In this document: piece after piece, positions 6,283-59,911 of the stretch
How the letters are laid out: each line of letters begins with the position of its first letter
Position numbering within the stretch: position 1 is the stretch's first letter
NCBI RefSeq assembly: GCF_013155125.1
Contig: NZ_CP053564.1
Coordinates: 5,649,501 to 5,713,500, forward strand
DNA: 64,000 bases
Origin: Pseudonocardia broussonetiae
GTDB lineage: Bacteria > Actinomycetota > Actinomycetes > Mycobacteriales > Pseudonocardiaceae
Direction of reading: 5' to 3'
Translations under genes and position numbers: made by a program
The notes under the pieces: generated by a model
Database searches by the model: none
What the model saw: only the letters and a program-made list of their open reading frames with translations
Told to the model about the DNA's origin: nothing

Positions 6283-6385
6283 CCCACCAGTCTGACGCGC
6301 GCCTGCCGGGTCGGCAGCGTCCACCGGACGTCGCGCCGGGTGACGATCCGGCCCCTCGCCTTGCGTCGGCCGCCACCATGGACGC

Positions 6386-9763: not shown

Positions 9764-11055
9764 CCACCCCCGGCATACCGCTCGGCGTCATGCTGCACGG
9801 CGCGATCGAGGAGCGACCCGATCGGCCGCTCCGGTACCGCGCCCGTGTCCGGTGGACCGACCCTGCGTCGGGCAGGCGACGTTCGAAGTCCGAGGCCTTC
9901 GCTGCCGAGGAGCCGGCAACCGCGTGGATCGGCCAGATGCAGCGGCTCGCGCTGGGCGGCGTCCACCCGGAAACAGCCACCATGACACTCGCGGAGTACG
10001 GCGAGGCTGTCATGCCGCTGGCGCTGCGCGGTCTGGAGGCCAAGACGCTCGACCCGTACCTGTCGGGTTGGCGGCGACGCGTCGTTCCGTCGCTCGGGCA
10101 CCTCACGCCCAGGATGATCACCAACGGAGCCGTCGACCGCGCCGCGGGTAGCTGGATCGCCGATGAGTGCAGCCGCTCCACCATCAAGAACAGCCTCGCC
10201 GTCCTCGTCCGCGTGATGGAGCAGGCGGTGCGGGACGGCATCCTCGACCGGAACCCGGCCCGCATCACCGGTTGGCAGCACCAGTTCCGCGCGGCCGAGG
10301 ACGAGCTCGACGACCCCCGCTCGCTGGCGCTCCCCGACTGGACCACGCTGGTCAGGCTCGCGGACGCGCTCGTGGCGCGTTCGGCCGACCGGCACCGCGG
10401 TTGGGGCGACGTGACGGTCTTTGCCGCCTGTACGGCGGCGCGTATCGGCGAGGTGTCCGGATGCCGCGTCGGAGACATCGACACCCGGACCTGGATGTGG
10501 ACCGTCCGTCGCCAGACGACACCCTCACCCGGCGGCCTCGTCGACAAGGGCACCAAGGGCAAGCGGGCACGGGTCGTGCCGCTGATCGCCGACGTCCGCG
10601 AGCTCGTTCAGCACCGCATCGCCGCCGCCGGCGGAAGGCCCAACGCCCGACTGTTCACCGGCCCCCGTGGCGGGCGCATCACCACCGCCGTCCTTCGTGA
10701 CGCTACCCACTGGGACGAGGTCGTGAGCTCGCTCGGCCTGGAGCACCTCCGGCGCCACGCCTTGCGCCACACCGGGCTCACATGGATGGCGGACGCCGGA
10801 GTGCCCGTGCACGTATTGCGCGTCATCGCCGGCCACGGATCGCTGACGACGACGCAGCGCTACCTGCACCCCGACCGCCGCAGCATCACCGACGCCGGAG
10901 AGGCACTCACTGCCTACCTCCGCACTCCGCGGTCCCCGAGGGGTCCCCAGCCTGAGGCGAGGCAGATCGTCAGAGTGGAGACTGCCACCGGACGTGCTCC
11001 GGCTCCATCGCACGAATCAGCAGGTAGAACAACGAAACGGGCGGCTCCTCCGTGA
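9760..11055 (+). CDS. int: Tyrosine recombinase / integrase (left element)
   Basis: 431 residues from the GTG overlapping the xis stop. It has an N-terminal arm-binding segment, a core-binding SAM-like region (about 60-170), then the catalytic domain. The catalytic residues are visible: R in CTAARIGEV, K in DKGTKGKRARV, HALRHTG (H-x-x-R), GHGS, and tyrosine in TTTQRYLHPD. It ends immediately before a partial copy of tRNA-Pro (11074-11120), where its own attachment site would be expected. Sequence differs clearly from the integrase at 26915, so the two are not recent duplicates. Intact by all visible criteria. Confidence 0.93.
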   Translation: MTTPGIPLGVMLHGAIEERPDRPLRYRARVRWTDPASGRRRSKSEAFAAEEPATAWIGQMQRLALGGVHPETATMTLAEYGEAVMPLALRGLEAKTLDPYLSGWRRRVVPSLGHLTPRMITNGAVDRAAGSWIADECSRSTIKNSLAVLVRVMEQAVRDGILDRNPARITGWQHQFRAAEDELDDPRSLALPDWTTLVRLADALVARSADRHRGWGDVTVFAACTAARIGEVSGCRVGDIDTRTWMWTVRRQTTPSPGGLVDKGTKGKRARVVPLIADVRELVQHRIAAAGGRPNARLFTGPRGGRITTAVLRDATHWDEVVSSLGLEHLRRHALRHTGLTWMADAGVPVHVLRVIAGHGSLTTTQRYLHPDRRSITDAGEALTAYLRTPRSPRGPQPEARQIVRVETATGRAPAPSHESAGRTTKRAAPP

Positions 11056-11120
11056 AGAGGAACCGCCCGTGTCGACCGTCGGGACGACAGGATTTGAACC
11101 TGCGACCCCTTGACCCCCAG
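11036..11120 (-). repeat. Attachment-site copy: partial tRNA-Pro 3' half plus terminator hairpin
   Basis: 85 bases that match 28182-28266 with only four differences; the last 47 (11074-11120) are identical. It contains the 3' half of tRNA-Pro from the anticodon loop to the acceptor end, plus the GC-rich hairpin that terminates that tRNA. The 5' half of the tRNA is missing. This is the scar expected when an element inserts into a tRNA 3' end. It marks the left border of the 17-kb island and the right border of the left element. The hairpin may also terminate the integrase transcript. Confidence 0.9.
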
Positions 11121-11220
11121 GCACACCAGATGACTTCCTGACGTCGGCCCGAAACGACTGTTTCCGCAGCTCACAGTGCGTGTGCGTCCGGCTGCGTCCG
11201 CCCGCTGCCGTGGCCGTAAT

Positions 11221-12046: not shown

Positions 12047-12625
12047 TCATTCGACCGGCTGCCACTGCTGATCCCCTGCAGGCGCCCAGGCTCGCAACGC
12101 ATCCAGGAGCTCCGCGGGATCCTGTCCGGCGAGCACAAGATCCCGGTCGCCTTGTCGGAGGAACCCTTCGATCACAGCGTGGTCGAGGAAGGCGAGGAAG
12201 TGCCCGTAGTACCCGTCGGTGTCGAGCAGGCCGGTGGGTAGGGAGTGGATGCCGAGCTGGGACCACGTGAGGACCTCGGCGAACTCCTCCAGTGTTCCGA
12301 GGCCGCCGGGGAGCGCGATGAAACCCCCTGCGAGTTCGACCATCTTCGCCTTGCGCTCGTGCATCGACTCCACGACGTGCAGCTCCGTCAGGCCCTGGTG
12401 AGCGATCTCCTGGCCGGCCTGTTCGCGGGGGATCACACCGATCACCGTCCCGCGGGCTTCGAGGGCGGCGTCCGCGAGTGTTCCCATCGTGCCGACGCTC
12501 GCACCGCCGTACACGACGGCGATGCCCTCCTCTGCGAGGTGCCGTCCGAGCCGTCGGGCGCCGTCGACGTACCGCGGTCCCCGGCCGGTGTTCGAGCCGC
12601 AGAACACGCACAGGCTCGTGATCAT
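12047..12625 (-). CDS. LOG family nucleoside 5'-monophosphate phosphoribohydrolase
   Basis: 192 residues from the ATG giving MITSLCVFCGSNTG; GAGGAG lies nine bases upstream, and an ATG two codons earlier is also possible. This is the Rossmann-like LOG (lysine decarboxylase-like, TIGR00730) fold: VFCGSNTG at the N-terminus, VVYGGASVGTMG, the active-site motif LPGGLGTLEE and ESMHERKAKM. Members remove the base from nucleoside 5'-monophosphates, such as cytokinin ribotides, releasing ribose 5-phosphate. They are not lysine decarboxylases despite older names. In this island it is a plausible partner of the PRPP synthetase and the NAMPT homologue, both of which handle phosphoribosyl compounds. Confidence 0.87.
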   Translation of the reverse strand: MITSLCVFCGSNTGRGPRYVDGARRLGRHLAEEGIAVVYGGASVGTMGTLADAALEARGTVIGVIPREQAGQEIAHQGLTELHVVESMHERKAKMVELAGGFIALPGGLGTLEEFAEVLTWSQLGIHSLPTGLLDTDGYYGHFLAFLDHAVIEGFLRQGDRDLVLAGQDPAELLDALRAWAPAGDQQWQPVE

Positions 12626-12794
12626 CGTCATCAGCTCCTCTGTCCCGCTCCATGCGGCGCTCGATAGTGTCGAGCTCCGGGTCCTGCCACCCACGTCCGT
12701 GACGAGTGCTGGACGGCCCATGCGACCTGGCCCCATGACGGTCGTAGGCATCGCGCCGCATCCACGAGCCGGATGACGCACTCGCGGGCTGTCG

Positions 12795-13964
12795 TCACCG
12801 GTATGCCGCCTGGCCTGTGAGCGCTTCGCCGATGACCAGTGTGTGCACTTCATCGGTGCCCTCGTAGGTGCGGACCGACTCGAGGTTGTTGGCGTGGCGC
12901 AGCGGCGAGTACTCCCCGGAGATGCCGCTGCCGCCGAGGACGGTGCGGCACTCCCGTGCGATGGCGATCGCTTCGCGCACGTTGTTCAGCTTGCCCACGC
13001 TGACCTGCTCGGCGCGGAGCTCGTGCCGGTCCTTCAGACGACCGAGGTGCAGGGCCAGCAGCATGGCGGAGTTGAGCGCGACCGCCATGTCGGCCAGCTT
13101 CTTCTGCGTCAGCTGGAAGGCACTGATCGGCCGGTCGAACTGGATGCGCGAGTCCGCGTACCGCAGCGCTGTGCGGAGACTGTCTCGAGCAGCCCCGACC
13201 GCTCCGAAGAGGATCCCGAACCGTGCTTCGTTCAAGCACGCCAGTGGCCCACGCAGCCCACGGGCCTCGGACAGTTGTGCGGACGCCGGGAGGCGGACGT
13301 CCTCCAGGTGCAGCGACGAGGTCACCGACGCGCGCAGGGACAGCTTCTGCTTGATGTCGGTCGTCGTGAACCCGCGGGTACCGCGGGGGACGAGGAAGCC
13401 GCGGATGCCGTCGTCGGTCTGCGCCCAGACCGTCGCGATGTCGGCCAGGCCACCGTTCGTGATCCACGTCTTGGAGCCGTTGATCACCCAGTCGTCGCCG
13501 TCGCGGACCGCCCGGGTGCGCATGCCTGCGGGGTTGGAACCGAAGTCGGGCTCGGTCAGCCCGAAACAGCCGATGGCCTCGCCTGCGGCGAGTCGCGGAA
13601 GCCACTCGGACTTCTGCTCCTCCGAGCCCCACCGCCAGATCGAGAACATCGACAGCGAGCCCTGCACGGAGACGAAGCTGCGCAGGCCGGAGTCGACCCC
13701 CTCGAGTTCCAGACAGGCCAGGCCGTAGCTCACCGCGTTCGTGCCCGCGCAGCCGTAGCCGTCGAGGTGCATGCCGAGCAGTCCGAGTTTGCCGAGTTCG
13801 GGCACCAGATCGCGGGGAAAGGTCGCTGAGTCGTACCACTCCGCGATGTGCGGCCGGGCCCGGTCGTCGAGGAAGGCGCGCACGGTCTGCTGGATGTCCC
13901 GCTCCTCCTCGGTGAGCAGGCAAGCGGTGTCCAGCAGGTCCAGCGGGTCCGTCATCACGGGCAT
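12795..13964 (-). CDS. gcdH: Acyl-CoA dehydrogenase, glutaryl-CoA dehydrogenase type
   Basis: 389 residues, full length for the family. Segments match glutaryl-CoA dehydrogenases closely: GLRSFVSVQGSLSM (position of the substrate-binding arginine), GEAIGCFGLTEPDFGSNP, INGSKTWITNG, IQFDRPISAFQLTQKKLA, and YEGTDEVHTL carrying the catalytic glutamate. It would oxidise and decarboxylate glutaryl-CoA to crotonyl-CoA with FAD, passing electrons to ETF. The island also has a class III CoA-transferase and an aldehyde dehydrogenase, which would complete glutarate semialdehyde to crotonyl-CoA. Glutaryl-CoA specificity is likely but not certain. Confidence 0.85.
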   Translation of the reverse strand: MPVMTDPLDLLDTACLLTEEERDIQQTVRAFLDDRARPHIAEWYDSATFPRDLVPELGKLGLLGMHLDGYGCAGTNAVSYGLACLELEGVDSGLRSFVSVQGSLSMFSIWRWGSEEQKSEWLPRLAAGEAIGCFGLTEPDFGSNPAGMRTRAVRDGDDWVINGSKTWITNGGLADIATVWAQTDDGIRGFLVPRGTRGFTTTDIKQKLSLRASVTSSLHLEDVRLPASAQLSEARGLRGPLACLNEARFGILFGAVGAARDSLRTALRYADSRIQFDRPISAFQLTQKKLADMAVALNSAMLLALHLGRLKDRHELRAEQVSVGKLNNVREAIAIARECRTVLGGSGISGEYSPLRHANNLESVRTYEGTDEVHTLVIGEALTGQAAYR

Positions 13965-14181
13965 GGGTTCTCCGGTGTGGTGTCAGAGGGTCTGTACGAG
14001 TGGCCGGCCAGAGGTGGACGGTCGTCGTCGCTGAGCCGGCAGCACCGAGCCGTGCGAGCGCGCTGCAAGCGTGTCCCCCGTGGCAGCGTCCCCGTAGCCG
14101 ATGCGGACCTCCCCCGGCCCGGTCCGATCATCGAGGGAGCTGGATACACGGACGTTCCCTTCGTCGGAACAGCTCGGGTGG

Positions 14182-15213
14182 TCAGAACAAGTGGTTGTTG
14201 CCGCCGAAGACCTCGCTGACGGAGTCGTCGGTGAAGATGCGACGGATGGAATCAGCCAGTAGCGGCGCGCAGGAGACGACGTCGACGTTGTCGGGGACAC
14301 CGGGGCGCAATGGGATCGTGTCGGTGACGACGATGCGCTCGAACGGTGCGACCGCAAGGTTCTCGTGCGCGCGGCCGCTGAGCACCGGGTGCGTCGCGGC
14401 GGCGAACACGCGTCGGGCACCGGCCTTGACGACGGCTTCGCCTGCTGCCCTCAGAGTTCCCGCGGTGTCGATGATGTCGTCGACGATGATCGCGGTGCGA
14501 TCACGCACGTCGCCGATCACGTGCCCGATCTCGGCGACCTGCTGGCGGGGGCGTTCCTTGTCCAGGATCGCGAGCCCCGCGCCCATGCGGGTGGCGAACT
14601 GCTTGTTGAGCTTGACCCGGCCCGCATCCGGTGCGACGACGACGAGCTCCCCGGGATCCGCCTCGATCCCGCGGAAGTGGTCGGCGAGCATCATCAGCGC
14701 GGTCATGTGGTCCACCGGGCGGGAGAAGAAGCCCTGCAGCTGACCGGCGTGCAGATCCATGGTCAGGACTCGGTCCACGCCTGCGGACTCGAGCATGCGG
14801 GCCACGAGCCTGGCTGAGATGGGTTCGCGCGGTGCGGACTTCTTGTCCTGGCGGGAGTAGCCGTACCACGGTGTCACCGCGATCACGCGGTGCGCGCTGG
14901 CTCCGACCGCGGCGTCGATCATGACGAGCAGTTCGAGCAGGGCGTCGTTGGCGTTGAGGCCGGTGGCGGGGTTGCCGCACATCGGTTGGACGATGAACAC
15001 GTCCGCGCCTCGGATGGAGTCGGTGTAGCGGCAGTACATCTCGTCGTTGGAGAAGGTCTTCAGGATCACCGGGCCGAGCTCGACGCCGAGCTGTCCGGCG
15101 ATCGCCGAGGCCAGAGCGGGGTTGGCGCGGCCTGCGAACAGCATGAGGCGCTTGTCGTAGCTGAACCGCATGCTCGTCGGCCCCGGCCGCACGGACGCGA
15201 TGTCGGTCGTCAT
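14182..15213 (-). CDS. prs: Ribose-phosphate pyrophosphokinase (PRPP synthetase)
   Basis: 343 residues; the ATG overlaps the stop of the HAD gene (ATGA). Motifs: LKTFSNDEMYCRY, VIAVTPWYGYSRQDKKS, the histidine motif TMDLHAGQLQGFF, VVVAPDAGRVK, and the ribose-phosphate loop IIVDDIIDTAGT. It makes PRPP from ribose 5-phosphate and ATP. It differs from the housekeeping actinobacterial Prs in details (PDAG where PD(A/T)G is usual; an extended N-terminus MTTDIASVRPGPTSMRF), so it is probably an accessory copy. Placement in an operon with a NAMPT homologue and downstream of a ribokinase gives an obvious route ribose - ribose 5-P - PRPP - ribotide. Confidence 0.92.
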   Translation of the reverse strand: MTTDIASVRPGPTSMRFSYDKRLMLFAGRANPALASAIAGQLGVELGPVILKTFSNDEMYCRYTDSIRGADVFIVQPMCGNPATGLNANDALLELLVMIDAAVGASAHRVIAVTPWYGYSRQDKKSAPREPISARLVARMLESAGVDRVLTMDLHAGQLQGFFSRPVDHMTALMMLADHFRGIEADPGELVVVAPDAGRVKLNKQFATRMGAGLAILDKERPRQQVAEIGHVIGDVRDRTAIIVDDIIDTAGTLRAAGEAVVKAGARRVFAAATHPVLSGRAHENLAVAPFERIVVTDTIPLRPGVPDNVDVVSCAPLLADSIRRIFTDDSVSEVFGGNNHLF

Positions 15214-15869
15214 GCCGGGCACCCGCGGCCGGTCCGTGCGCCGTCGAGCAGTTCCCTGCCCAGCGCGTAGGCGCCACGGATGTCGTCGCCCTCGAAGCAC
15301 ACCGTCGCACTCTCCCGCAGCCGGGCGGTGCAGTTGACCCCCACGGTGTAGGGCAGACGTGCGAAGAGCAGGGTGTCCGAGGTCGAGTCGCCGTATGCCA
15401 CGCACTCCTGATCGGTGATCTCGAGCTCGTCGAGCAGCGCCAGGGTGATGTCGACCTTGTGCTGCAGCGTGAGGAGCCGCTCCTTGCGGGTCGGGACGTT
15501 CGGCACCACGTCGGATCCGAACGTGCGATGGGCACCCCAGGCCTCCAACCTCCTGACGAAGAAGTGCGGCGACTGCGAGATGACGGCGATGTGCTCGCCG
15601 CGCGACCGGATGTCGGCGAAGACCTCGCGGACGCCGTCCATCCAGGCCGACGCGGCGAACGCCGCATCGATCTCGGCTTCGCTGACGTCGGCCCAGAGCG
15701 GCAGCATCTGCTCCCAGAACTGCACGTCGGTGATCTCGCCGCGGAGCCATGCCTGCTCGATCCGGTCGGCCGGCTCATGGGTCCCCAGGTGCCGGGCGAG
15801 CTCGACCGAGCCGGCTCCGCGCAGGAGGGTGCCGTCCATGTCGAAGACGTGCAGGTGCGTCCGGGTCAT
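15210..15869 (-). CDS. HAD-IB family phosphatase, SerB-like
   Basis: 219 residues from the ATG at 15869 (GGAG eight bases upstream). HAD motif I is HVFDMDGTLLRG, motif II serine VISQSP, a lysine in PTRKERLL, and motif IV AYGDSTSDTLLF. The helical cap (ELARHLGTH to DAAFAASAW) matches the phosphoserine phosphatase/HAD-IB group, which includes phosphatases of many small phosphomonoesters. Lying between a NAMPT homologue and a PRPP synthetase, overlapping the latter, it may dephosphorylate a ribotide product; that is inference. Confidence 0.85.
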   Translation of the reverse strand: MTRTHLHVFDMDGTLLRGAGSVELARHLGTHEPADRIEQAWLRGEITDVQFWEQMLPLWADVSEAEIDAAFAASAWMDGVREVFADIRSRGEHIAVISQSPHFFVRRLEAWGAHRTFGSDVVPNVPTRKERLLTLQHKVDITLALLDELEITDQECVAYGDSTSDTLLFARLPYTVGVNCTARLRESATVCFEGDDIRGAYALGRELLDGARTGRGCPA

Positions 15870-15898
15870 CGAGCGGGCTCCAGGGGGGTTGGAGTGCG

Positions 15899-15938
15899 GT
15901 GCCGTCGCGGCCGGGGAAGGGGCCGGCCGCGACGGCAC
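15899..15938 (-). terminator. Perfect 16-bp hairpin between the NAMPT-like and HAD genes
   Basis: Arms 15899-15914 and 15923-15938 (GTGCCGTCGCGGCCGG and its exact complement) enclose an eight-base loop. No T-run follows, so it is more likely an attenuator or mRNA-stabilising hairpin than a full terminator. It would lower expression of the HAD and prs genes relative to the first gene. Confidence 0.65.
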
Positions 15939-15950
15939 GACAGGTGTGCG

Positions 15951-17411
15951 TCAGGCCGAAGCGATCACGGCGGCCTCGTTGACCACGGTGCGCATCTGTC
16001 CGACGTGGTTGATGTAGTAGGACTCCGGAACCTCGCGCTCGCCGTTGGCGATGAGCTCGGTGAAGTCCCATTTCTTGAGCAGCTTGCCGTTGCGGAACAC
16101 CGGCTTGAGCACGTTCTCCGACTCCGGGATCGACCCCTTCGGCACGGTGACGTACGTGCCGTTCTCGTACTTGAGCGCGAGTCGGCCCGCCTTCGAGGTC
16201 TTGAACGAGGCGCCGGTCGGCTGCTTGGAGATGTCGCGCCATTCGCCGTTGACGCACACCGCCGACGCCTTCTGCCCGAAGTTCATCGTGTCGCGGTTCC
16301 AGTGCTGCAGCAGGCCACCGCCCATGCCGAAGACCGCGTTGTCGGCGGCGAGACCACGGCGCTCGAGCTCCATGTAGACCTGCGGGAGACTGTAGAAGTT
16401 CACGCCGTCGCCCTGCACGACCCGGATGTAGGGCGGAAGGATCTTGAAGCCCTTCGAGTTGACCTCGTAGCCGAAGGCCTCCATGAGCCACTCGGTGGTG
16501 TCCGCGGTGACCTCGACGATGTCGCCGGAGTCCGGCCGGATCCCGACCAGACCCGGGAAGTTCCGGATCTGCTCCTTGAGCTCGACGCCGATGATCTTCT
16601 TGACGCAGTTCTCGTGGTCGTAGGTGTCGCTGAGGAGGAGTGCGACACCATCCTTGGCGTAGATGTCGAGCATGTTCCGGAGCGCGTCGGCCTCGTTCTC
16701 GCGTCCCCAGGCGCAGAAGCCGGCGTGCTCGGAGTTCGGGCCCGAGTTGGAGACCTTGCCCGCGTTGTAGAAGTGCTTGGCGGCCAGGATGCCGGGCACC
16801 GTGTCGGACTGGTCGAAGTTGACCAGGTGCGCAAGGCCGCCGAGCGCGGCGGACTGCTGGGAGCTCACTCCGCGCGCCCCGTAGTCGTGCAGGATGTTGC
16901 GGATCAGGTGGGGGTTGTCAGAGGTGCGGGCCAGCGCCTCCTTGATCACCATCTTCGACAGCCAGCTCACCGTGCCGATCGTCGTCGGGTACCAGACAGC
17001 ACGCAGCAGGGCGGTCTCGAAGAAGCTGGTCGCCCAGAAGTACTTCGGGTCGGTATTGATCAGCTGGACGAGGACGTTGCGCGCCGGTAGGACGATGCCC
17101 TCCGGCACGGCCTCGATCTCGACGGGCAGGTAGCCGCCGTGATCGTTGAGGATGCCGAGCCAGTTCTCGCGGTTGAAGTGCATGCCTTGCTCGCGCGTGA
17201 CGAACTCGGCCTCGTCGATGTCCTCGAGCGTGATCGGGCGCATCAGGTACTCGCGCAGGTACGCCTGCAACCCGACGAACTGAGTCACCGGCCAGTCGCC
17301 GCCTCGGGACTCGATGTAGCTCGAGACGTACTCGGTGCCCGGGGGGTACAGCGGGTAGTGGCAGTGCTTGTAGTTGTCGGTGTTGATGATCAGGTTGTCG
17401 AGGTAGCCCAT
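15951..17411 (-). CDS. nadV: Nicotinamide phosphoribosyltransferase homologue (NadV/NAMPT family)
   Basis: 486 residues from the ATG at 17411; a GTG four codons earlier is too close to its AGG. Full-length family match: IINTDNYKHCHYPLYPPGTE, ARGVSSQQSAALGGLAHLVN, QSDTVPG, SEHAGFCAWG, GIRPDSGDIVE, VFGMGGGLLQ and NRDTMN. The aspartate that reads the amide in human NAMPT (GTDTV) is kept (QSDTV), as are the phosphoribosyl-binding RPDSG and GGGLLQ and the histidine of the AEHS loop. The loop around that histidine (GPNSEHAG) and the stacking phenylalanine (DFGYRG becomes DYGARG) differ. It should join a pyridine-amide-like base to PRPP, making NMN or a related ribotide. Possible operators lie upstream. 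Confidence 0.88.
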   Translation of the reverse strand: MGYLDNLIINTDNYKHCHYPLYPPGTEYVSSYIESRGGDWPVTQFVGLQAYLREYLMRPITLEDIDEAEFVTREQGMHFNRENWLGILNDHGGYLPVEIEAVPEGIVLPARNVLVQLINTDPKYFWATSFFETALLRAVWYPTTIGTVSWLSKMVIKEALARTSDNPHLIRNILHDYGARGVSSQQSAALGGLAHLVNFDQSDTVPGILAAKHFYNAGKVSNSGPNSEHAGFCAWGRENEADALRNMLDIYAKDGVALLLSDTYDHENCVKKIIGVELKEQIRNFPGLVGIRPDSGDIVEVTADTTEWLMEAFGYEVNSKGFKILPPYIRVVQGDGVNFYSLPQVYMELERRGLAADNAVFGMGGGLLQHWNRDTMNFGQKASAVCVNGEWRDISKQPTGASFKTSKAGRLALKYENGTYVTVPKGSIPESENVLKPVFRNGKLLKKWDFTELIANGEREVPESYYINHVGQMRTVVNEAAVIASA

Positions 17412-17430
17412 CGGCCCGTCCACCTTCCGC

Positions 17431-17444
17431 GAGAGTCGTTTCTA
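17431..17444. promoter_or_regulatory. LacI-type operator-like site 1 (NAMPT-like gene)
   Basis: GAGAGTCGTTTCTA matches 11 of 14 positions of TAGAAACGTTTCTA and lies 20 bases before the ATG of the NAMPT-like gene, where a bound repressor would block initiation. Confidence 0.45.
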
Positions 17445-17572
17445 CCTGCCCTGCGTGCCGACGTCGGACGGCACGACAGACTTGGGATGCGCGGAACCGC
17501 GGTTCTGCGCCTTCGTGCAGCCTTGCGTATGCACTGACCCACCACCAGGGGTTGGCCTCATCGGCAACACCA

Positions 17573-17586
17573 TATTAACGTTTCTA
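17573..17586. promoter_or_regulatory. LacI-type operator-like site 2 (NAMPT-like gene)
   Basis: TATTAACGTTTCTA matches 12 of 14 positions of the island consensus, with the central CG typical of LacI-family operators. It lies in the AT-rich promoter-like part of the leader. Confidence 0.55.
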
Positions 17587-17779
17587 GTGTGACCGTCAAC
17601 TCATCTGGAGACCGAATTCGGTTCGTGCGGCAGGACGACGCGCGCCGCGGGATGCACCTTGATGCCAGGTGGCCTACAACACCACCTTCAGCGCTGTTCA
17701 GCGCCCCAGGCGCGGAACTGGAGCGGTGCCGCGTCGGGAGCGCCGACCCACGAGCGGTCGGTCCTGTCCAACGGAGCGC

Positions 17780-17793
17780 CGGAAACGATTCTA
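17780..17793. promoter_or_regulatory. LacI-type operator-like site 3
   Basis: CGGAAACGATTCTA matches 11 of 14 positions. It lies just after the ribokinase stop codon and could act as an auxiliary operator for the NAMPT-like operon by looping. Confidence 0.45.
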
Positions 17794-17811
17794 GTTTGGA
17801 CATCAGGAAGT

Positions 17812-18795
17812 TCACCGGGCATGAACGGCGGCCTCCGTCGTCAACTCGTCGGCGGTGGGCATGCCGCCCCGGGCGCCGTCTCCACCCACCGAGAGGGACG
17901 CCGCGACGTTGGCCAGGCGGACCGCGGCGTCGAGGGGTTCACCCCGGGCCAGCGCGAGGGCGAGCACACCGTTGAAGGTGTCCCCCGCTCCCGTCGTGTC
18001 TCGAACGGTGGCCGGTCGGGGCTGCACGTGGGTGACCGTTCCTGCGGGGTCGACGACGAGGACCCCATCGGCCCCGAGAGTGACCACCAGTTCCGAGCCG
18101 GTCAGCTCCGCCAGGGCCCGGGCGGCCTCGCCGACCGATGACAGCGATGGCACCTCGTCGGGCGGCGCATCTCCCGGTGCGACCTCCTGCGAGGTGACAC
18201 CGGCCTGCTCGGCGAGTGCGAGGCACTCGCCGGCGTTGGGCGTCAGGAGGGGGCCGAGCCCGAGCAGGTCGACGACGACGGGAAGGACCGGCGCAGGGTT
18301 GAGGATGCATGGCACGCCGGCGGCCCGAGCAGCGTGCACGGCTGCTGCGACCGCGGCGGCCGGGATCTCCGTGCTGACGAGGAGGCAGCCCGCACGGGGA
18401 AGCAGGCGGCCGAGCTGGGCCAGGACCGCCTCCGCGGTCACATCGTCGTTCGCACCGGCGCCAACGGCGATCTGGTTCTCTCCGCCGGGACCGACCACGA
18501 TCAACGCCACCCCTGTCGGCGCTGACGCGCTGACTTCGACGCCGCTGGTGTCGACACCGTCGTCCTGCAGGTCCCGAAGAGCTTGCCGTCCGGTGTCATC
18601 GTCACCGACAGCACCGACGTAGCAGACAGCACCACCCGCGCGGGCTGCTGCGACCGCGGCGTTCGCACCCTTTCCTCCGCCGTGCCTTTCGACGCCCCGG
18701 CCGACGACGGTCTCGCCCGGCGCGGGCAGGCGCGGGGCGTTCACCACCATGTCCACGTTGACGGCACCGACGACCACGACATCGATGTCCTTCAT
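17812..18795 (-). CDS. rbsK: PfkB-family carbohydrate kinase, ribokinase type
   Basis: 327 residues from the ATG at 18795 (GAGG eight bases upstream), ten bases after lacI. N-terminal VVVGAVNVDMVV and the GGKGAN motif (HGGGKGANAAVAAARAGG) are ribokinase signatures. The C-terminal anion hole and catalytic base are in DTTGAGDTFNGVLALALA. It would phosphorylate ribose or a closely related sugar or nucleoside at the 5 position with ATP. A 14-residue insert (APGDAPPDEVPSLS, about 220) is unusual. As a product source for the PRPP synthetase in the next operon it makes biochemical sense. Confidence 0.88.
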   Translation of the reverse strand: MKDIDVVVVGAVNVDMVVNAPRLPAPGETVVGRGVERHGGGKGANAAVAAARAGGAVCYVGAVGDDDTGRQALRDLQDDGVDTSGVEVSASAPTGVALIVVGPGGENQIAVGAGANDDVTAEAVLAQLGRLLPRAGCLLVSTEIPAAAVAAAVHAARAAGVPCILNPAPVLPVVVDLLGLGPLLTPNAGECLALAEQAGVTSQEVAPGDAPPDEVPSLSSVGEAARALAELTGSELVVTLGADGVLVVDPAGTVTHVQPRPATVRDTTGAGDTFNGVLALALARGEPLDAAVRLANVAASLSVGGDGARGGMPTADELTTEAAVHAR

Positions 18796-18805
18796 CGGCG
18801 CGTCC

Positions 18806-19828
18806 TCAGCGACACGGCGGACCCACGCTTTCACGGATCTTGACGATGGCGGGAAGCGTGCCACTGGTGTCGACATCGTTGCCCTCCAGCAGGTTGAACA
18901 GCACGTTCGCGGCGCGGAAGCCCATGTCGTGGGCCGGCTGACGCACACTGGTGAGCCGTGGGGTCAGCAGTGCCGAGATGGGCAGGTCGTCGAAGCCCAC
19001 CACACTCATGTCCTCAGGCACCCTCAACCCGTTGTTCCTGAGGCAGTCGATGGCGCCGATGGCCATGAGGTCGTTGGCGCACAGCAGTGCGGTGGGACGC
19101 TCACCCGCCGGACCCGACAGGATCTGCGTGGCCGCAGCCCTGCCCGACTCCTGTCGGTAGTCCCCCGCGTGGACCGGAACGGAATCGGGGTCGATCCCGG
19201 CACCGGCGATCGCCTCCCGGTACCCGGCGAGCCGCTGCTGCGCGGTCCACAGCGCCGGGGGCCCGCCGATCACCGCGATGCGGCGGTGCCCCTGGTCCAG
19301 CACGTGCGTCGCCACCTCGCGCGCACCGCGCCGGGAGTCGCACACGATCGCGGGCAGGTCCCGGCCCGGGATCTGCTCGTCGACGAGGACCACCGGTCCG
19401 GACTTCGCGAGGTCGTAGATGGACTCGGGCATGGAACCCGTCCCCGACAGGTAGATCACCCCGTCGACCCGCTGACTGCGCAGCAGCTTCGCGTAGTTCT
19501 CCTCCGGCAGCTCGATCGCGTCGGGCACCACGAGCACGACCAGCACGTTGACCGCCGACGCCGCCCGCTGCACCCCCTCGGTGACCATCGCGAAGAACTG
19601 GTTGGTCAGGTCGGGGACGACCATGGCGATCGTCGAGGCCGAGCGCCGCTTCAGGCTCCGCGCCGACTCGTTAGGGGAGTAGTCCAGGAGTCGGATCGCG
19701 TCGAGAACGCGGTTCCTCCTGTCCTGCGCCACGGGCCCGCTGTCGTTCAACACGTAGCTGACCGTGCTGACCGAGACGTTCGCGCGCTCTGCGACGTCCT
19801 TCATGGTGGGACGACGACGTGCAACCAC
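18806..19828 (-). CDS. LacI-family transcriptional repressor
   Basis: 340 residues from a GTG with AGAGG eight bases upstream. N-terminal DNA-binding headpiece TMKDVAERANVSVSTVSYVL, hinge SARSLKRRSASTIAMVVPDL, then a periplasmic-binding-protein-like sensor domain (VDGVIYLSGTG, VCDSRRGAREVATHVLDQGH, CANDLMAIGAIDCLRNNG, SVVGFDDLP). It is embedded in the operon cupin - flavoprotein - GATase1-like - lacI - ribokinase. Palindromes with a central CG or GC at 17431, 17573, 17780, 21645, 21701, 21934 and 24700 are its likely operators. A sugar or sugar phosphate handled by the island is the likely inducer; identity unknown. Confidence 0.93.
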   Translation of the reverse strand: MVARRRPTMKDVAERANVSVSTVSYVLNDSGPVAQDRRNRVLDAIRLLDYSPNESARSLKRRSASTIAMVVPDLTNQFFAMVTEGVQRAASAVNVLVVLVVPDAIELPEENYAKLLRSQRVDGVIYLSGTGSMPESIYDLAKSGPVVLVDEQIPGRDLPAIVCDSRRGAREVATHVLDQGHRRIAVIGGPPALWTAQQRLAGYREAIAGAGIDPDSVPVHAGDYRQESGRAAATQILSGPAGERPTALLCANDLMAIGAIDCLRNNGLRVPEDMSVVGFDDLPISALLTPRLTSVRQPAHDMGFRAANVLFNLLEGNDVDTSGTLPAIVKIRESVGPPCR

Positions 19829-19840: not shown

Positions 19841-20620
19841 CTAGGAGCTGGCGCGAGCCGCCCATCGCAGGACGGACGCCCAGAACTGCTGGTAGTGCGG
19901 CCACCCCACGAACTCAGGTGGCGCCCAGTGCGGCGCCAGGTCGGAGGTGAAGGCCACGGACCGGCCCTCACCCGCCTGTCCGACGACCAGCAGCGGGTCG
20001 TCGCCGGCCCGCGCGACGGTCGTCGCCTCCGGCTTGGCGATGACCCGGTTGTACCCCAGCAGCAACGGCCACTCCGCAGGGGTACCACCCAGCACCTCGT
20101 GCGCCGGCTGGTCGAAGTCTGCCTTGACGCCCTCGGACTCCTCGATCCGGTCGTCGTGGTCCAGCATCACGACCGGGAGCACGTCGGCCAGCGGCGTCAT
20201 GCCGAACCGCGCCTTCCCGTCGATGCCGGTGAAGGACATGTAGCCACCGATCATGACCAGCCCCCCGCCCGCCCGCGTCCAGTCGCGCAGCAGGGCGAGC
20301 CGGTTGGTGCTGCGCTCCGACCGCAGGAACGTCTCGTCCGGCAGCAGGAACGAGTTGGACCCGATGTCGGAGAGCACCACGACGTCGAACTCGTCGAGTT
20401 CGGTCATGGTCCTGGGGAACCTCGACGAGATCTCGTGCCCGCGGATGTAGGTGACCGGGAACCCCTCCCGGTCGAGGGCGGCCAGGAACTCCCCCGCGCC
20501 CTCCTCGTACTCCGTGGTGTGGAACTGGTCGAACCCCTTCATGTGGATGGTGTGCTTCATCCACGACTCACCGGCGAACAGCACCCGCGGGGGGCGACCC
20601 GCCCCGACTCCGGCGCTCAC
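19841..20620 (-). CDS. GATase1-like (ThuA/PF07090-type) protein
   Basis: 259 residues from a GTG overlapping the flavoprotein stop (GTGA). It opens VLFAGESWMKHTIHMKGFDQ and continues EYEEGAGEFLAAL, DVVVLSDIGSNSFLLPDETF, RAGGGLVMIGGYMSFTGID and GEGRSVAFTSDLAPHWAPPE. This is the pattern of putative cytoplasmic glutamine-amidotransferase-like proteins (GATase1_like), which share the class I amidotransferase fold but lack its Cys-His-Glu triad. Relatives often sit in sugar catabolic loci beside dehydrogenases and LacI regulators. Reaction unknown; it might act on a sugar or a sugar-derived lactone. Confidence 0.75.
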   Translation of the reverse strand: MSAGVGAGRPPRVLFAGESWMKHTIHMKGFDQFHTTEYEEGAGEFLAALDREGFPVTYIRGHEISSRFPRTMTELDEFDVVVLSDIGSNSFLLPDETFLRSERSTNRLALLRDWTRAGGGLVMIGGYMSFTGIDGKARFGMTPLADVLPVVMLDHDDRIEESEGVKADFDQPAHEVLGGTPAEWPLLLGYNRVIAKPEATTVARAGDDPLLVVGQAGEGRSVAFTSDLAPHWAPPEFVGWPHYQQFWASVLRWAARASS

Positions 20621-21132
20621 AGGATGCGGTCCTCGACGTGGGCCGGGAGCACGCGCGACTCCGGCATGGGAAGCACGCTGAGCTCGCGCATGTCCCACCC
20701 GATCATCTTGTCGGGCACCAGCTCGTAGTAGGTGCGGCCGGCCACGTCGCCGAACTCGAGGTACTGCTCGGCGAACGGGTGCCCGACGTGGAAGTACTTG
20801 TCGAGCACGAGCTGCGCCAGATCGGCGGCCAGCGCCGCGTCCTCGACCTCGCGCATGCTGCCGATGATCCGGACCCCGGACACGGTCGCGTACTCGTCGC
20901 CCTGGTCGACCAGAGCGGAGAGCGCGCGTCCCGCACGGAAGTTGTCGCCGTGCCGGGACGCGGCGTCGATGGGGATGTAGATCTTCTTGTCGTGCACGAC
21001 CAGCCAGAGCGGCGAGAGGTAGATCGATCCGTCCTCGTTGGCCGTCGCCACGCGGATCGTCTTCGCCCGGGACAGGTACGCCCAGCGCTTGTCGCCCCGC
21101 AGGGGCTGCCAGGTGCTCGCGGTAACAGCCAT
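20617..21132 (-). CDS. Pyridoxamine 5'-phosphate oxidase-like flavoprotein (split barrel)
   Basis: 171 residues, single split-barrel domain. Visible features: AYLSRAKTIRVATANEDGSI, LSPLWLVVHDKKIYIPID, RHGDNFRAGRALSALVDQG and VRIIGSMREVED. These fit the PPOX/FDOR superfamily that binds FMN, F420 or haem. The two bases before the start link it directly to the cupin gene, and its stop overlaps the GATase1-like gene. Likely an oxidoreductase acting on the pathway intermediate, or a cofactor-reducing partner. No PLP-synthesis signature is present, so vitamin B6 metabolism is unlikely. Confidence 0.78.
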   Translation of the reverse strand: MAVTASTWQPLRGDKRWAYLSRAKTIRVATANEDGSIYLSPLWLVVHDKKIYIPIDAASRHGDNFRAGRALSALVDQGDEYATVSGVRIIGSMREVEDAALAADLAQLVLDKYFHVGHPFAEQYLEFGDVAGRTYYELVPDKMIGWDMRELSVLPMPESRVLPAHVEDRIL

Positions 21133-21134: not shown

Positions 21135-21602
21135 TCAGTTCCCCTCCGCGGCGCGCAGCGCCTTCAGCTCACGGCTGTAGTCGGCAGCATCGGCAACGCC
21201 GACCTTCGGGGACGGGCCGGAGGTCCAGAAGAACTTCCACGTGACCCCGGTGTTCTCGAGCGTGTACTTGTAACCGGCAGGCAGGTAGATGTGCTCACCC
21301 TCCCCGGCCTCGAGCACGATCGTGCGACCGGCCGCGTCCTCGACGACCAGATGGATCTTGCCCTCGAGGACGTAGTGCGTCTCGTCGAAGTCCTTCTGGT
21401 CCCAGTGGTAGGGCAGGTGGTCGGGCTCGCCGTAGCAGTAGCCGTGCCGGAAGTAGCGGGCGTCGTCGCGTTCCCGCGACAGGAAGATGTTGGTCACGAT
21501 GCCGGTGTTGAACGTCAGCACCGGCATCTTGTCGATCTCCTCAGGCACGATGACCCGCGGGTAACGACGCGCGTTGCGAGCGTCGGGGTCGTACTCCGTC
21601 AC
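21135..21602 (-). CDS. Cupin-domain protein (EutQ-like)
   Basis: 155 residues, first gene of the five-gene leftward operon. The double-stranded beta-helix contains the cupin motifs HYVLEGKIHLVVED and GEGEHIYLPAGYKYTLEN. An upstream aromatic-rich region (YFRHGYCYGEPDHLPYHWDQ) probably adds metal ligands: histidines and glutamate around HLPYHW and FDETHYVLEG. It resembles ethanolamine-utilisation EutQ-like or small ring-cleaving and isomerase cupins. The catalysed step is unknown. Expression is probably controlled by the operator-like sites just upstream at 21645 and 21701. Confidence 0.8.
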   Translation of the reverse strand: MTEYDPDARNARRYPRVIVPEEIDKMPVLTFNTGIVTNIFLSRERDDARYFRHGYCYGEPDHLPYHWDQKDFDETHYVLEGKIHLVVEDAAGRTIVLEAGEGEHIYLPAGYKYTLENTGVTWKFFWTSGPSPKVGVADAADYSRELKALRAAEGN

Positions 21603-21700: not shown

Positions 21701-21714
21701 TTGATTCGTTTCTA
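21701..21714. promoter_or_regulatory. LacI-type operator-like site 5 (cupin operon)
   Basis: TTGATTCGTTTCTA matches 11 of 14 consensus positions and has the central CG. Confidence 0.45.
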
Positions 21715-21933: not shown

Positions 21934-21947
21934 TAGAAAGCTTTCTA
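21934..21947. promoter_or_regulatory. Perfect palindromic operator-like site 6 (CoA-transferase)
   Basis: TAGAAAGCTTTCTA is a perfect 14-bp palindrome, ending four bases before the AGGAGG ribosome-binding site of the gene at 21961. A bound repressor would block transcription of this gene at or just after the start point. Confidence 0.7.
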
Positions 21948-21960: not shown

Positions 21961-23088
21961 GTGGCGTCATCCGAGCCGACGGCACTCGAAGGCCTGAAGG
22001 TGCTCGACTTCTCCCGGGTCCTGGCGGGACCTTTCGCGACCATGCTGCTCGCCGACCTCGGCGCCACCGTCGCGAAGGTCGAGCGACCCGCCGGCGGGGA
22101 CGACACGAGGGCATGGGGGCCTCCCTATGACGACGCAGGGCAGGCCACCTACTTCCAGGCGGTCAACCGCAACAAGACGACCAGCGCGCTCGACCTGTCC
22201 TCGCCGGCCGGCCTGGCCGCCGCACGCGCCGCCGCGGCGGAGGCGGATGTGCTGGTGGAGAACTTCCGGCCCGGAGTCATGGACAGACTGGGACTCGGTC
22301 CGACCGAGCTCTGCGCCGCGAACCCGCGTCTCGTCTACTGCTCCATCACCGGCTTCGGTGCGGGCGCTGGCGCCGAGATGCCGGGGTACGACCTCCTGGT
22401 CCAGGCCCTCGGTGGTCTGATGAGCATCACCGGCGAGCCGGACGGCGAGCCCCAGAAGGTCGGGGTGGCGCTGGTCGACGTCCTCGCCGGCCTGTTCGCC
22501 TCGGTCGGCATCCTCGCCGCCCTGCGTCACCGCGAGACCACCGGGCACGGCCAGCGGATCGAGGTCGACCTGCTCTCCAGCCTCCTCGCGGCGCTGGTGA
22601 ACCAGGGCTCCGCCTACACCGCGGGCGGTGTGGTTCCCCGTCGGCTCGGCAACCGGCATCCGAGCATCGCCCCGTACGAGCTGTTCCCCTGCTCGGATCG
22701 TGACCTCGTACTGGCCGTCGGCAACGACCGCCAGTTCCGCGCCCTCTGCACCGTGCTCGACCTCCCCGATGTCCCGGGCGACGCCCGCTTCGCCACCAAC
22801 TCCGATCGCGTCGGCAACCGCGAACTCCTCCAGCCCGTACTGGGGTCGCGACTGCGCCGGCAGACCGCTGCGGAGTGGGTGGAGCGACTGACCCGCGTCG
22901 GGGTCCCCGCCGGCGTAGTGAACGACGTCGCCGGCGCCTTCGCGCTGGCCGAATCCCTCGGGCTCGACCCCGTGGTGCGGCTACCGCGCGCCGACGGGAG
23001 CTCGATCGACCTGACCCGCAATCCGATCACGCTCTCGAGGACCCCGGTGCGCTACCGGACGGCCCCGCCTCCGCTGCCTGAGCACTAG
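21961..23088 (+). CDS. Class III (CaiB/BaiF) CoA-transferase
   Basis: 375 residues; GTG start with AGGAGG four to five bases upstream. Typical family III features: LEGLKVLDFSRVLAGPFATM, LADLGATVAKVERP, VNRNKTTSALDL, VENFRPGVMDRLGLG, and PGYDLLVQALGGLMSITG with the aspartate that forms the acyl intermediate. It would move CoA from succinyl-CoA or another donor to a carboxylate. Together with the aldehyde dehydrogenase and the glutaryl-CoA-dehydrogenase-like enzyme of the island, a glutarate substrate is a reasonable guess (as for succinyl-CoA:glutarate CoA-transferase). It is convergent with the dehydrogenase gene. Confidence 0.88.
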   Translation: MASSEPTALEGLKVLDFSRVLAGPFATMLLADLGATVAKVERPAGGDDTRAWGPPYDDAGQATYFQAVNRNKTTSALDLSSPAGLAAARAAAAEADVLVENFRPGVMDRLGLGPTELCAANPRLVYCSITGFGAGAGAEMPGYDLLVQALGGLMSITGEPDGEPQKVGVALVDVLAGLFASVGILAALRHRETTGHGQRIEVDLLSSLLAALVNQGSAYTAGGVVPRRLGNRHPSIAPYELFPCSDRDLVLAVGNDRQFRALCTVLDLPDVPGDARFATNSDRVGNRELLQPVLGSRLRRQTAAEWVERLTRVGVPAGVVNDVAGAFALAESLGLDPVVRLPRADGSSIDLTRNPITLSRTPVRYRTAPPPLPEH

Positions 23089-23148: not shown

Positions 23149-24585
23149 TCAGCTCCCCGCGTAGCCGAAGACGGACTTCGTCTCCAGGAACTCGCGCAGG
23201 CCGAAGTCGGAGTACTCCCGGCCGTTGCCGGACTGCTTGTAGCCGCCGAACGCACCGGCGAAGTCGAGCCCGGCCCCGTTGACGTGGACCATGCCCGTCC
23301 GCAGGCGGCGCGCCACGGCGCGGGCCCGTTCGAGGTCCGCGGACGAGACGAATCCCGCCAGACCGTAGACGGTGTCGTTGGCGAGACGGATCGCGTCGTC
23401 CACGTCGGAGTAGGTGGTCACCGTGATGACCGGTCCGAAGATCTCCTCCTGCGCGATCTCCATGTCGTTGGTGACGTTCGCGAGGATGGTCGGACGCACG
23501 AAATAGCCGACATCCAATCCGGCGGGACGGCCTGGTCCCCCGGCCACGACCGTGGCGCCGGCATCCACGGCAGCTCGGATCAGACGCTGCACCTTGTCGT
23601 ACGCGGCCTGGGACACGAGCGGCCCTATCTGCACGCCCTCCTGCTCGGGATGTCCCACGACGATCGCTTCGGCCGCAGACCGGGCGTGGGCGAGCACCTC
23701 CTCCAACTTCGACTCGGGGACCAGCCACCGGGCACCCGCGTTGCACGACTGTCCGGAGTTCGCGCACACGTCGCCCATGTCGCGCGGGATGACGGAGGCG
23801 AAGTCAGCGTCGTCGAGCATGATGTTCGCCGACTTGCCGCCCAGTTCCTGGGCCACCCGCTTGACCGTCGGGGCCGCGCTCCTGGCCACCTCGACACCGG
23901 CGCGCGTCGATCCGGTGAACGAGACCATGTCGACGTCCGGGTGGGAGGTGAGAGCACTCCCGACCGTGGGACCATCGCCGTGGACGAGGTTGAACACACC
24001 GGCCGGGACGCCCGCCTCGTGCAGGATCTCCGCGATGATCACCGCGTTGAGCGGAGCGAGCTCTGAGGGCTTCAGCACCATCGTGCACCCCGCAGCCAGC
24101 GCAGGCGCCACCTTCGCCGCGATCAGCAGGGGCGGCCAGTTCCAGGGCGTGATCAGGCCGCAGACGCCGATCGATTCGTAGCGGACCTGGGTGCTGCCCC
24201 GCTGCTCCTCGAACTGGAAGTTCTTCAGGGCGTCGATCGCGAAGGTGAACTGACCGAGCCCGGCGCCCACCTGAGCCGTGCTCGCGAGCCCAGCGGGCGC
24301 TCCCATCTCGGCCATCAGCGTGGTCGCGATGTCCTGCGACCGTGATTGGTACACCTCGACGATCCGCTCCAGCAACTGCACGCGCTCGGAGACAGAGGTC
24401 TGCGAGTAGGACTCGAAGGCTGCTCGCGCTGCCCGTACCGCACGGTCGACGTCTTCAGCAGTACCCAGAGCCACTGTGGCGACCGGCTCCTCTGTCGAGG
24501 GGTTGAGCACCTCTATCGTCGAAGCACCCGTCGGGGCAACCCACTCGCCCCCGATGTAGAAAGCGTTCGCATCTTTCACTGTCAT
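23149..24585 (-). CDS. NAD(P)-dependent aldehyde dehydrogenase
   Basis: 478 residues from the ATG at 24585 (MTVKDANAFYIGGEW); a GTG two codons in has an equally placed GGGG. Signatures: GLITPWNWPPLL, FTGSTRAGVEVARSAA, the catalytic glutamate in AQELGGKSAN, the catalytic cysteine in NSGQSCNAG, and IFGPVITV. It oxidises an aldehyde to the acid. In context the best candidate substrate is a dicarboxylate semialdehyde such as glutarate semialdehyde, feeding the CoA-transferase and acyl-CoA dehydrogenase; this is inference. A LacI-type operator-like site lies at 24700, 115 bases upstream. Confidence 0.9.
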   Translation of the reverse strand: MTVKDANAFYIGGEWVAPTGASTIEVLNPSTEEPVATVALGTAEDVDRAVRAARAAFESYSQTSVSERVQLLERIVEVYQSRSQDIATTLMAEMGAPAGLASTAQVGAGLGQFTFAIDALKNFQFEEQRGSTQVRYESIGVCGLITPWNWPPLLIAAKVAPALAAGCTMVLKPSELAPLNAVIIAEILHEAGVPAGVFNLVHGDGPTVGSALTSHPDVDMVSFTGSTRAGVEVARSAAPTVKRVAQELGGKSANIMLDDADFASVIPRDMGDVCANSGQSCNAGARWLVPESKLEEVLAHARSAAEAIVVGHPEQEGVQIGPLVSQAAYDKVQRLIRAAVDAGATVVAGGPGRPAGLDVGYFVRPTILANVTNDMEIAQEEIFGPVITVTTYSDVDDAIRLANDTVYGLAGFVSSADLERARAVARRLRTGMVHVNGAGLDFAGAFGGYKQSGNGREYSDFGLREFLETKSVFGYAGS

Positions 24586-28181: not shown

Positions 28182-28298
<117 letters not shown>

Positions 28299-54134: not shown

Positions 54135-54148
54135 CGACAGAGGATACA

Positions 54149-54182: not shown

Positions 54183-54197
54183 CAAATCATGTTTGAT

Positions 54198-54461: not shown

Positions 54462-59488
<5,027 letters not shown>

Positions 59489-59880: not shown

Positions 59881-59911
59881 ATCGGGGGGGTCGTTTCGGC
59901 GTTTCCGCAGG

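Follow-up and report, generated by a model that had tools for sequence, protein, structure and literature searches.

A tRNA-borne gene island of Pseudonocardia broussonetiae that may break down pyridine, or a very close N-heterocycle, through an N-ribotide

To our knowledge, neither the first catabolic step of pyridine nor the genes of its reductive route have been settled. In 2020, Casaite et al. reportedly described a pyrABCDE cluster on plasmid p2MP of Arthrobacter sp. 68b, with no ribotide step; its reported genes encode a flavin monooxygenase, a flavin reductase, an aldehyde dehydrogenase (ALDH), an amidohydrolase, and a succinate semialdehyde dehydrogenase (SSADH). In 2018, Perchat et al. 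are said to have described TgnAB, a luciferase-like monooxygenase with a flavin reductase, which opens the N-alkyl pyridinium ring of trigonelline. Trigonelline is an N-methylpyridinium. A third related system is nicotinamide adenine dinucleotide (NAD) salvage by NAMPT/NadV, and the pair of NAMPT and ribose-phosphate diphosphokinase (Prs) is known from phage NAD-salvage cassettes. Here we describe a gene cassette around a NAMPT-like phosphoribosyltransferase in a 64,000-nucleotide stretch of Pseudonocardia broussonetiae (NZ_CP053564.1, positions 5,649,501 to 5,713,500; called the window below). We read it, at roughly two chances in three, as a mobile island for the catabolism, via an N-ribotide, of pyridine or a very close N-heterocycle. 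This reading draws on gene content, the mutual exclusivity of two gene modules, an altered base pocket, operator-like sites, the island borders, and the growth of one carrier on pyridine.

The cassette runs from about 24.6 kb down to 12.0 kb of the window, mostly on the minus strand, with a divergent CoA-transferase gene on the plus strand. The original prediction had placed a ribose-to-ribotide pathway of five enzymes, namely, a LOG-type phosphoribohydrolase, Prs, a HAD phosphatase, a NAMPT homologue, and a PfkB kinase, at 12047 to 18795. All five genes are present and open on the minus strand, and all pass their family cut-offs except at the ribokinase model, the best family of the PfkB kinase (TIGR02152, 254 bits, below the equivalog cut-off of 300). 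The proposed chain from ribose through ribose 5-phosphate and phosphoribosyl pyrophosphate (PRPP) to a ribotide, with recovery of the ribose, would fit the gene core that recurs in relatives. The outline was too narrow elsewhere: a glutaryl-CoA dehydrogenase (GCDH) gene sits between LOG and Prs, the system runs to about 24.7 kb and is borne on an island, and the F420 and glutarate parts and the two exclusive modules had been missed.

A scan of GTDB genomes gave 67 NAMPT loci, 29 of them titled Pseudonocardia and others from Rhodococcus, Williamsia, Pseudarthrobacter, Solirubrobacterales, and alpha- and gammaproteobacteria. Since the proteobacterial proteins are mostly 71 to 80% identical to that of the window, spread of the cassette by horizontal transfer is suggested. 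The nearest named relatives are Pseudonocardia, and a NAMPT at least 77% identical was found in 3 of 298 sampled genomes of the window's order, the 7.29-Mb P. broussonetiae assembly included. Among plasmids, 34 records matched, and in 12 of them, all from Rhodococcus or Arthrobacter, a NAMPT of 61 to 77% identity is encoded. The grouping of the genes is not due to chance, since NAMPT relatives of other genera and phyla have them as neighbors too.

We counted genes in 62 cassette loci (NAMPT identity of 70% or more, length of 12 kb or more, window left out). A locus was called type A if, like the window, it has a flavin/deazaflavin oxidoreductase (FDOR) gene, and type B if it has a luciferase-like monooxygenase gene or a PTE/ALDH_B pair. 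The loci, which were found by patterns from the window NAMPT that favor near relatives and which are not independent (L029/L030, L055/L056, L071/L072, L075/L077/L078, L099/L100, and L040/L101 are near duplicates or share a genome), split into 29 A, 23 B, 10 with neither module, and none with both. The two types share a core: HAD (28/29 A and 22/23 B), GATase-like protein (28/29 and 21/23), LacI (28/29 and 20/23), Prs (24/29 and 18/23), and PfkB (23/29 and 19/23). The remaining genes divide. A cupin gene is present in 29/29 A loci versus 1/23 B loci, and ALDH (16/29), CoA-transferase (11/29), and GCDH (10/29, counted at 45% identity or more, which leaves out a 30% match in L047) occur in A loci and in no B locus. 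Conversely, the luciferase-like monooxygenase (20/23), NIPSNAP (19/23), ALDH_B (21/23), flavin reductase (10/23), SSADH (5/23), and formate dehydrogenase FdhF (3/23) were seen in B loci and in none of the 29 A loci, with an amidohydrolase in 11/23 B versus 1/29 A. LOG was found in 7/29 A and 2/23 B loci, and nucleoside hydrolases (at least 30% identity to one of three queries) in 15/29 and 11/23. The same exclusivity holds on plasmids, where FDOR occurs in six records and the B monooxygenase in six others, and 12/12 carry the cassette NAMPT. The B amidohydrolase is in seven plasmid records, the six B records and one from Roseovarius that is absent from the NAMPT list. Both genomes found to have FDOR (2 of 298) have a cassette NAMPT, and the single genome with the B monooxygenase (1 of 296) has two cassette NAMPTs. 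FDOR relatives were also looked for in viral contigs, and none was confirmed.

The window NAMPT keeps Asp16, Tyr18, Arg196, His247, Asp279, Arg311, Asp313, and Lys400 (human numbering), the catalytic and PRPP-binding positions of NAMPT, and these are conserved in the aligned cassette relatives, save in rows without the N terminus. The kept His247 suggests ATP-driven catalysis. The nicotinamide pocket (Phe193, Gly217, Val/Ile242, Ala244, Val/Ile309, and Ile351), by comparison, is changed at every position in the window protein and, with the exceptions given below, in the cassette proteins: F193Y, G217Q, V/I242G, A244N, V/I309G (Cys or Ala in some), and I351V. The canonical pocket is kept in human NAMPT (position 217 is uninformative in this row, a G217R chain), in 7yqo, in three plasmid proteins encoded beside a NadM or NUDIX gene, and in three proteins from the window's order (L096 to L098). 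The last three are canonical by pocket and not by context, with no NadM gene within the 20 kb taken. A related NAMPT subgroup (L060, L063, and L064; 62 to 64% identity), one member of which is from a cyanobacterium, has another pocket with Phe309, Cys351, and Tyr379; near some of these genes lie CinA-like, orotidine monophosphate (OMP) decarboxylase-like, or HAD genes.

A NAMPT tree was built from 90 rows, after removal of short matches and of translations containing stops or X, and it carries a long-branch warning. On it, all cassette proteins fall into a single group with support of 100/100, apart from the five NAD-type rows. With a second NAMPT taking the label of its locus (L034 and L017), the A label needs 10 changes on this tree (at least 9 forced by well-supported branches), 9 changes are needed for the B label (at least 8), and the three module labels together need 10 changes versus a shuffled mean of 23.1. 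The modules therefore travel with NAMPT, yet have been swapped several times. That a single pocket is combined with either of two exchangeable modules suggests a single substrate whose product is processed by two different chemistries.

Each module also tends to bring supply genes for the cofactor that it would need, as F420 genes accompany A and flavin genes accompany B. F420 genes lie beside the cassette in 13/29 A versus 0/23 B loci. An Acetobacteraceae locus (L070) has FGD (TIGR03554, 457 bits, cut-off 420), CofE, CofD, CofC, and FbiC (PRK09234, 1106 bits, cut-off 1018) beside NAMPT, cupin, FDOR, GATase, and Prs genes, and on Rhodococcus plasmids pDK1 and pRWAY01 genes annotated cofH, cofC, F420-0:glutamate ligase, and pgl adjoin the cassette. 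The window cassette itself has no F420 gene, and the same genome encodes FGD (597 bits) and FbiC (1460 bits), both over the cut-offs, elsewhere. On the B side, flavin reductases occur in some loci, L049 encodes lumazine synthase, and an open reading frame (ORF) of the same cluster is present in both L045 and L046.

The other A genes point to the end of the pathway. The top six solved relatives of the window GCDH are all named GCDH, one as putative (E values from 3e-188 to 3e-108), and those of the CoA-transferase include SUGCT (9br7, E = 2.6e-83), ranked third behind 10uh and 4ed9. Together the two enzymes point to a glutarate route and fit a C5 product. For ALDH, the nearest structures do not single out a substrate. 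LOG has P151, G152, G153, G155, and T156 conserved across 14 sequences, the PGGxGT motif of LOG phosphoribohydrolases, and falls short of the cytokinin-specific equivalog (NF058542, 118 bits, cut-off 300). The HAD-IB phosphatase keeps the DxDGT and GDSxSD residues. The best NCBIfam models of the LacI regulator are CytR and RbsR, both below their equivalog cut-offs, the profile matches of the cupin are oxalate decarboxylases and, weakly, acireductone dioxygenase, and the solved relatives of the GATase1-like protein (3soz and 2gk3) have no functional name.

The genes form an operon-like array and are probably co-regulated. The gaps between neighbors from LOG to LacI are 10 to 59 nucleotides, except between PfkB and NAMPT (388) and between Prs and GCDH (217). 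The motif TAGAAACGTTTCTA, at three mismatches or fewer, has six matches in the window (0.07 expected; none of 100 shuffles reached six), all at cassette promoters: three at NAMPT, two at the divergent cupin/CoA-transferase promoter, and one at ALDH. The consensus was written with the relatives' sites and the window's NAMPT and divergent promoters in view, which makes the counts there circular in part; this does not apply to the ALDH site, which had not been consulted. In relatives, a match within three mismatches lies upstream of NAMPT in 54 of 70 regions versus 5.6% of 1,640 random locus stretches. A strict palindrome scan found nothing in the NAMPT or divergent promoters. Because the matches are confined to cassette promoters and recur upstream of NAMPT in relatives, control of the cassette by one LacI-type operator family is likely. 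This agrees with the LacI control alongside catabolic enzymes noted in the original prediction, which had also named co-regulation of the genes as one of its tests.

The cassette is likely the cargo of a tRNA-Pro island of about 17.1 kb. Two 88-nucleotide direct repeats, 94% identical with an exact 47-nucleotide core and spaced 17,146 nucleotides apart, flank it; they copy the 3' end of the tRNA-Pro gene, next to which lies a tyrosine integrase gene, an arrangement that marks a tRNA-borne integrative island. A second tyrosine integrase gene (PF00589; 9406 to 11055) ends at the left repeat and probably belongs to another element, tandem or older, that used this tRNA site. Outside the island are genes for a NUDIX hydrolase (5809 to 6405) and a GGDEF protein (3488 to 5092). 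Farther away, positions 54001 to 60000 have a GC content of 0.58 to 0.60 versus 0.74 to 0.79 on both sides; this may be an rRNA operon, no tRNA was found there, and the Rfam search covered 8000 to 30000. Coordinates are given in Table 1.

Table 1. Features of the island and its cassette, in window positions
Feature	Position	Strand	Evidence or remark
Left flanking repeat	11036..11123		copy of tRNA-Pro 3' end
LOG-type phosphoribohydrolase	12047..12760	-	TIGR00730 179 bits (cut-off 96), PF03641
Glutaryl-CoA dehydrogenase (acyl-CoA dehydrogenase family)	12795..13964	-	solved relatives, best 3swo E=3e-188
Ribose-phosphate diphosphokinase (Prs)	14182..15150	-	TIGR01251 343 bits (cut-off 113)
HAD-IB phosphatase	15210..15938	-	TIGR01488 70 bits (cut-off 45)
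NAMPT-like phosphoribosyltransferase	15951..17423	-	PRK09198 506 bits (cut-off 405); NAMPT_N PF18127
LacI-type operator match upstream of NAMPT, 3 mismatches	17431..17444		motif scan
LacI-type operator match upstream of NAMPT, 2 mismatches	17573..17586		motif scan
LacI-type operator match upstream of NAMPT, 3 mismatches	17780..17793		motif scan
PfkB-family (ribo)kinase	17812..18795	-	PF00294 212 bits
LacI-family regulator (CytR/RbsR-like)	18806..19828	-	PF00356 and PF13377
GATase1-like protein	19841..20698	-	PF07090 325 bits; ORF, true start probably inside
FDOR (PNPOx fold), proposed F420H2-dependent reductase	20617..21132	-	PF01243
Cupin, proposed ring-opening hydrolase	21135..21602	-	weak Cupin_2/Cupin_3
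LacI-type operator match, cupin/CoA-transferase divergent promoter	21701..21714		motif scan
LacI-type operator match, cupin/CoA-transferase divergent promoter	21934..21947		motif scan
Class III CoA-transferase, proposed glutarate CoA-transferase	21961..23088	+	PF02515 406 bits
Aldehyde dehydrogenase (ALDH)	23149..24636	-	PF00171 518 bits; ORF, true start probably inside
LacI-type operator match upstream of ALDH	24700..24713		motif scan
Tyrosine integrase of the island, adjoining tRNA-Pro	26915..28114	+	PF00589 63.5 bits
Right flanking repeat	28182..28269		overlaps tRNA-Pro 3' end
tRNA-Pro(GGG), proposed integration site	28224..28298	-	tRNA search

From these genes we infer a scheme, including every reaction, the reaction order, the roles of GATase and cupin, and pyridine as the base. 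The NAMPT-like enzyme would join the ring nitrogen of pyridine to PRPP, giving N-phosphoribosyl-pyridinium, which is nicotinamide mononucleotide (NMN) without its carboxamide. The ribosylated ring would be an NAD-like, electrophilic pyridinium, open to hydride in type A or to flavin-dependent opening in type B. In module A, FDOR would use F420H2 to reduce this ring, yielding a dihydropyridine ribotide or riboside, which the cupin would help hydrolyze to a C5 dialdehyde and ribosylamine (5-phosphate). ALDH would yield glutarate, the class III CoA-transferase glutaryl-CoA, and GCDH crotonyl-CoA. The sugar would be recycled, either to ribose 5-phosphate by LOG or spontaneous hydrolysis, or through HAD and nucleoside hydrolysis to ribose that PfkB rephosphorylates, with Prs remaking PRPP. 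The promoters of NAMPT, of the cupin/CoA-transferase pair, and of ALDH would be under LacI control. In the sister loci that have it, module B would replace the steps from ring reduction to the glutarate end by flavin/O2-dependent ring opening, in some loci towards succinate semialdehyde and formate.

The C5 dicarboxylate end of module A (ALDH, CoA-transferase, and GCDH) fits the reductive pyridine route, to which no genes are known to have been assigned, and the ribotide and F420 are new proposals. Module B resembles pyrABCDE in its gene list, from which the window differs in having module A; no plasmid match is a record named p2MP or 68b. Module B is also like TgnAB in its luciferase-like monooxygenase and flavin reductase, and JGI names two listed relatives of the B monooxygenase trigonelline monooxygenase. 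The difference is that trigonelline is already N-methylated, whereas in the cassette the N-substituent would come from PRPP and be recovered. With NAMPT/NadV salvage the cassette NAMPT shares the fold family and the PRPP and catalytic residues, and it differs in its base pocket and its catabolic neighbors; no adenylyltransferase partner was found for it. For module A, PMC8498797 reports FDOR-B enzymes that reduce dehydropiperidine and dihydropyrazine rings, and F420H2-dependent picrate degradation, like these, passes hydride from F420H2 to a nitroaromatic or N-containing ring; the F420 genes near some cassettes add to the likeness. The picrate reductase is of another family (LLHT), and no ribosylation is reported there (PMC8498797).

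Pyridine is an industrial pollutant, and Rhodococcus sp. PD04 grows on it as sole carbon and nitrogen source (PMC11256795, which names no pathway genes). The 527,914-bp linear plasmid of PD04 carries the core genes NAMPT, Prs, PfkB, LacI, GATase, and HAD together with module B, here genes for the monooxygenase, formate dehydrogenase, flavin reductase, NIPSNAP, ALDH, SSADH, and an amidohydrolase. Plasmids of R. pyridinivorans P23 and R. aetherivorans N1 have this array too, and on a plasmid of Arthrobacter crystallopoietes DSM 20117 there is a related one in a different order. In another study, two of nine Rhodococcus strains tested grew on pyridine (PMC10005059).

Several points weigh against pyridine breakdown by this scheme. 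PyrA and PyrE of Arthrobacter 68b reportedly cleave pyridine directly, with no ribotide needed. Asp219, which contacts the carboxamide in human NAMPT, is kept in most cassette NAMPTs and so gives pyridine no preference over an amide. Within the stretches taken, 5 of 29 A loci are without Prs and 6 without PfkB, 10 of the 62 loci have neither module, and GCDH is found in only the 10 A loci counted above. FDOR scores 33 bits against the F420 family TIGR03618 (cut-off 79), far below the threshold, so its use of F420 is argued from neighboring genes, and these are absent from 16/29 A stretches; its sole solved relative, 1rfe, is listed among the FDORs in PMC8498797. For an N-alkyl pyridinium that bears no electron-withdrawing group, reduction by F420H2 may be uphill and need pull by ring opening, and the roles given to GATase and cupin are guesses. 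Most other JGI names of B-enzyme relatives are alkanesulfonate monooxygenase-like. The phenotype of PD04 concerns module B and not module A of the window, and R. pyridinivorans IEGM 1137 and R. jostii IEGM 1193 did not grow on pyridine (PMC10005059), which would bear on the scheme only if they carry the cassette.

The same ribotide pathway could serve mainly another N-heterocycle, such as a picoline, an aminopyridine, pyrazine, or a pyridine carboxamide, which we consider unlikely though worth keeping in mind. Asp219 and Arg311 are kept, and the family has further changed pockets, in L079/L105 (F193, E219, and H244), the second L017 copy, and the second G330 copy/L100 (G219), because of which some members probably use other bases. 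The GCDH and the SUGCT-like CoA-transferase, however, imply an unbranched C5 product, and PD04 grows on pyridine itself (PMC11256795).

It is improbable that module B, and perhaps A, acts on free pyridine with the ribotide genes as an accessory, for example, one that scavenges or detoxifies pyridine nucleotides from side reactions. The direct cleavage reported for PyrA/PyrE would fit, but the core genes occur about as often as those for ring opening, NAMPT is present on each of the 12 plasmids that have a ring-opening gene, and trigonelline monooxygenase, the JGI name of two B relatives, opens an N-alkylated pyridinium.

The original prediction had also offered two uses for the pathway, rebuilding NAD after depletion, as in defense, or processing a nicotinamide-like base. 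The changed pocket and the partner genes favor the second, and we regard NAD salvage or reconstitution as very improbable. NAMPT with Prs is the pair known from phage cassettes, the window NAMPT passes the PRK09198 cut-off, and NadD is encoded elsewhere in the genome, so the cassette need not hold an adenylyltransferase. A partner NMN or nicotinate mononucleotide adenylyltransferase, the mark of an NAD salvage cassette, was nevertheless not found: NadM-type enzymes were in 0 of 62 cassette loci and a NadD query had no match in 106 loci (L001 to L106), versus a NadM-Nudix or NUDIX-domain relative as immediate neighbor in three of three lower-identity canonical plasmid loci examined. Missing NadM is not decisive by itself, because L096 to L098, with canonical pockets, also lack it; the altered base pocket and the glutarate, F420, and ring-opening partners are the stronger argument. 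That the cassette makes a ribosylated pyridinium-like cofactor or natural product is hardly credible, since, although biosynthetic clusters, too, can hold F420 genes and FDORs (PMC8498797), the cassettes have within or close to them genes of a catabolic kind, namely, those for GCDH, CoA-transferase, SSADH, formate dehydrogenase, and ammonium transporters, and the carrier PD04 uses pyridine as sole carbon and nitrogen source.

Individual loci showed further features. Pseudonocardia dioxanivorans CB1190 has two cassette NAMPT loci (L012 and L031) about 20 kb apart. In P. oceani (L008), a NAMPT 99% identical lies with HAD, Prs, GCDH, and LOG genes; the PfkB-to-cupin half is absent from the 10 kb upstream, where a gene for a large protein with a pyruvate-ferredoxin-oxidoreductase domain is found instead. 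Two gammaproteobacterial loci, L034 (10001 to 20500) and L066, hold a second NAMPT gene (56 to 57% identical), which genes for glycine cleavage T, H, and P separate from the cassette NAMPT/HAD; a CinA-like gene is close to this second copy, with an OMP-decarboxylase-like gene as well in L034. Ammonium transporter genes lie near the cassette in L032, L035, L042, L052, L100, and L101, which might be expected if the ring nitrogen is handled as ammonia.

We found no earlier description of nucleotide-first breakdown of pyridine-type rings. Among the open-access papers listed, at most 25 per search and judged by title and start of abstract, none joins phosphoribosylation to pyridine catabolism, a weak absence as subscription journals lie outside; passages of PMC5159870 and PMC6525221 hold nothing on these routes. 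The wider proposal, to which we lean only slightly, is that bacteria of at least two phyla degrade pyridine as a nucleotide, with a dedicated phosphoribosyltransferase that makes the inert ring an NAD-like pyridinium, reductive opening by F420H2 to glutarate or oxidative opening by reduced flavin and O2 to succinate semialdehyde and formate, and ribose phosphate as a recyclable handle, so that the two classical routes would be one pathway with interchangeable middle modules. If true, the activation of a ring for breakdown by a reusable handle, a nucleotide made from PRPP, would be new in principle, the travel of F420 genes with the cassette into proteobacteria would be explained, and annotations as nicotinate phosphoribosyltransferase would need correction.

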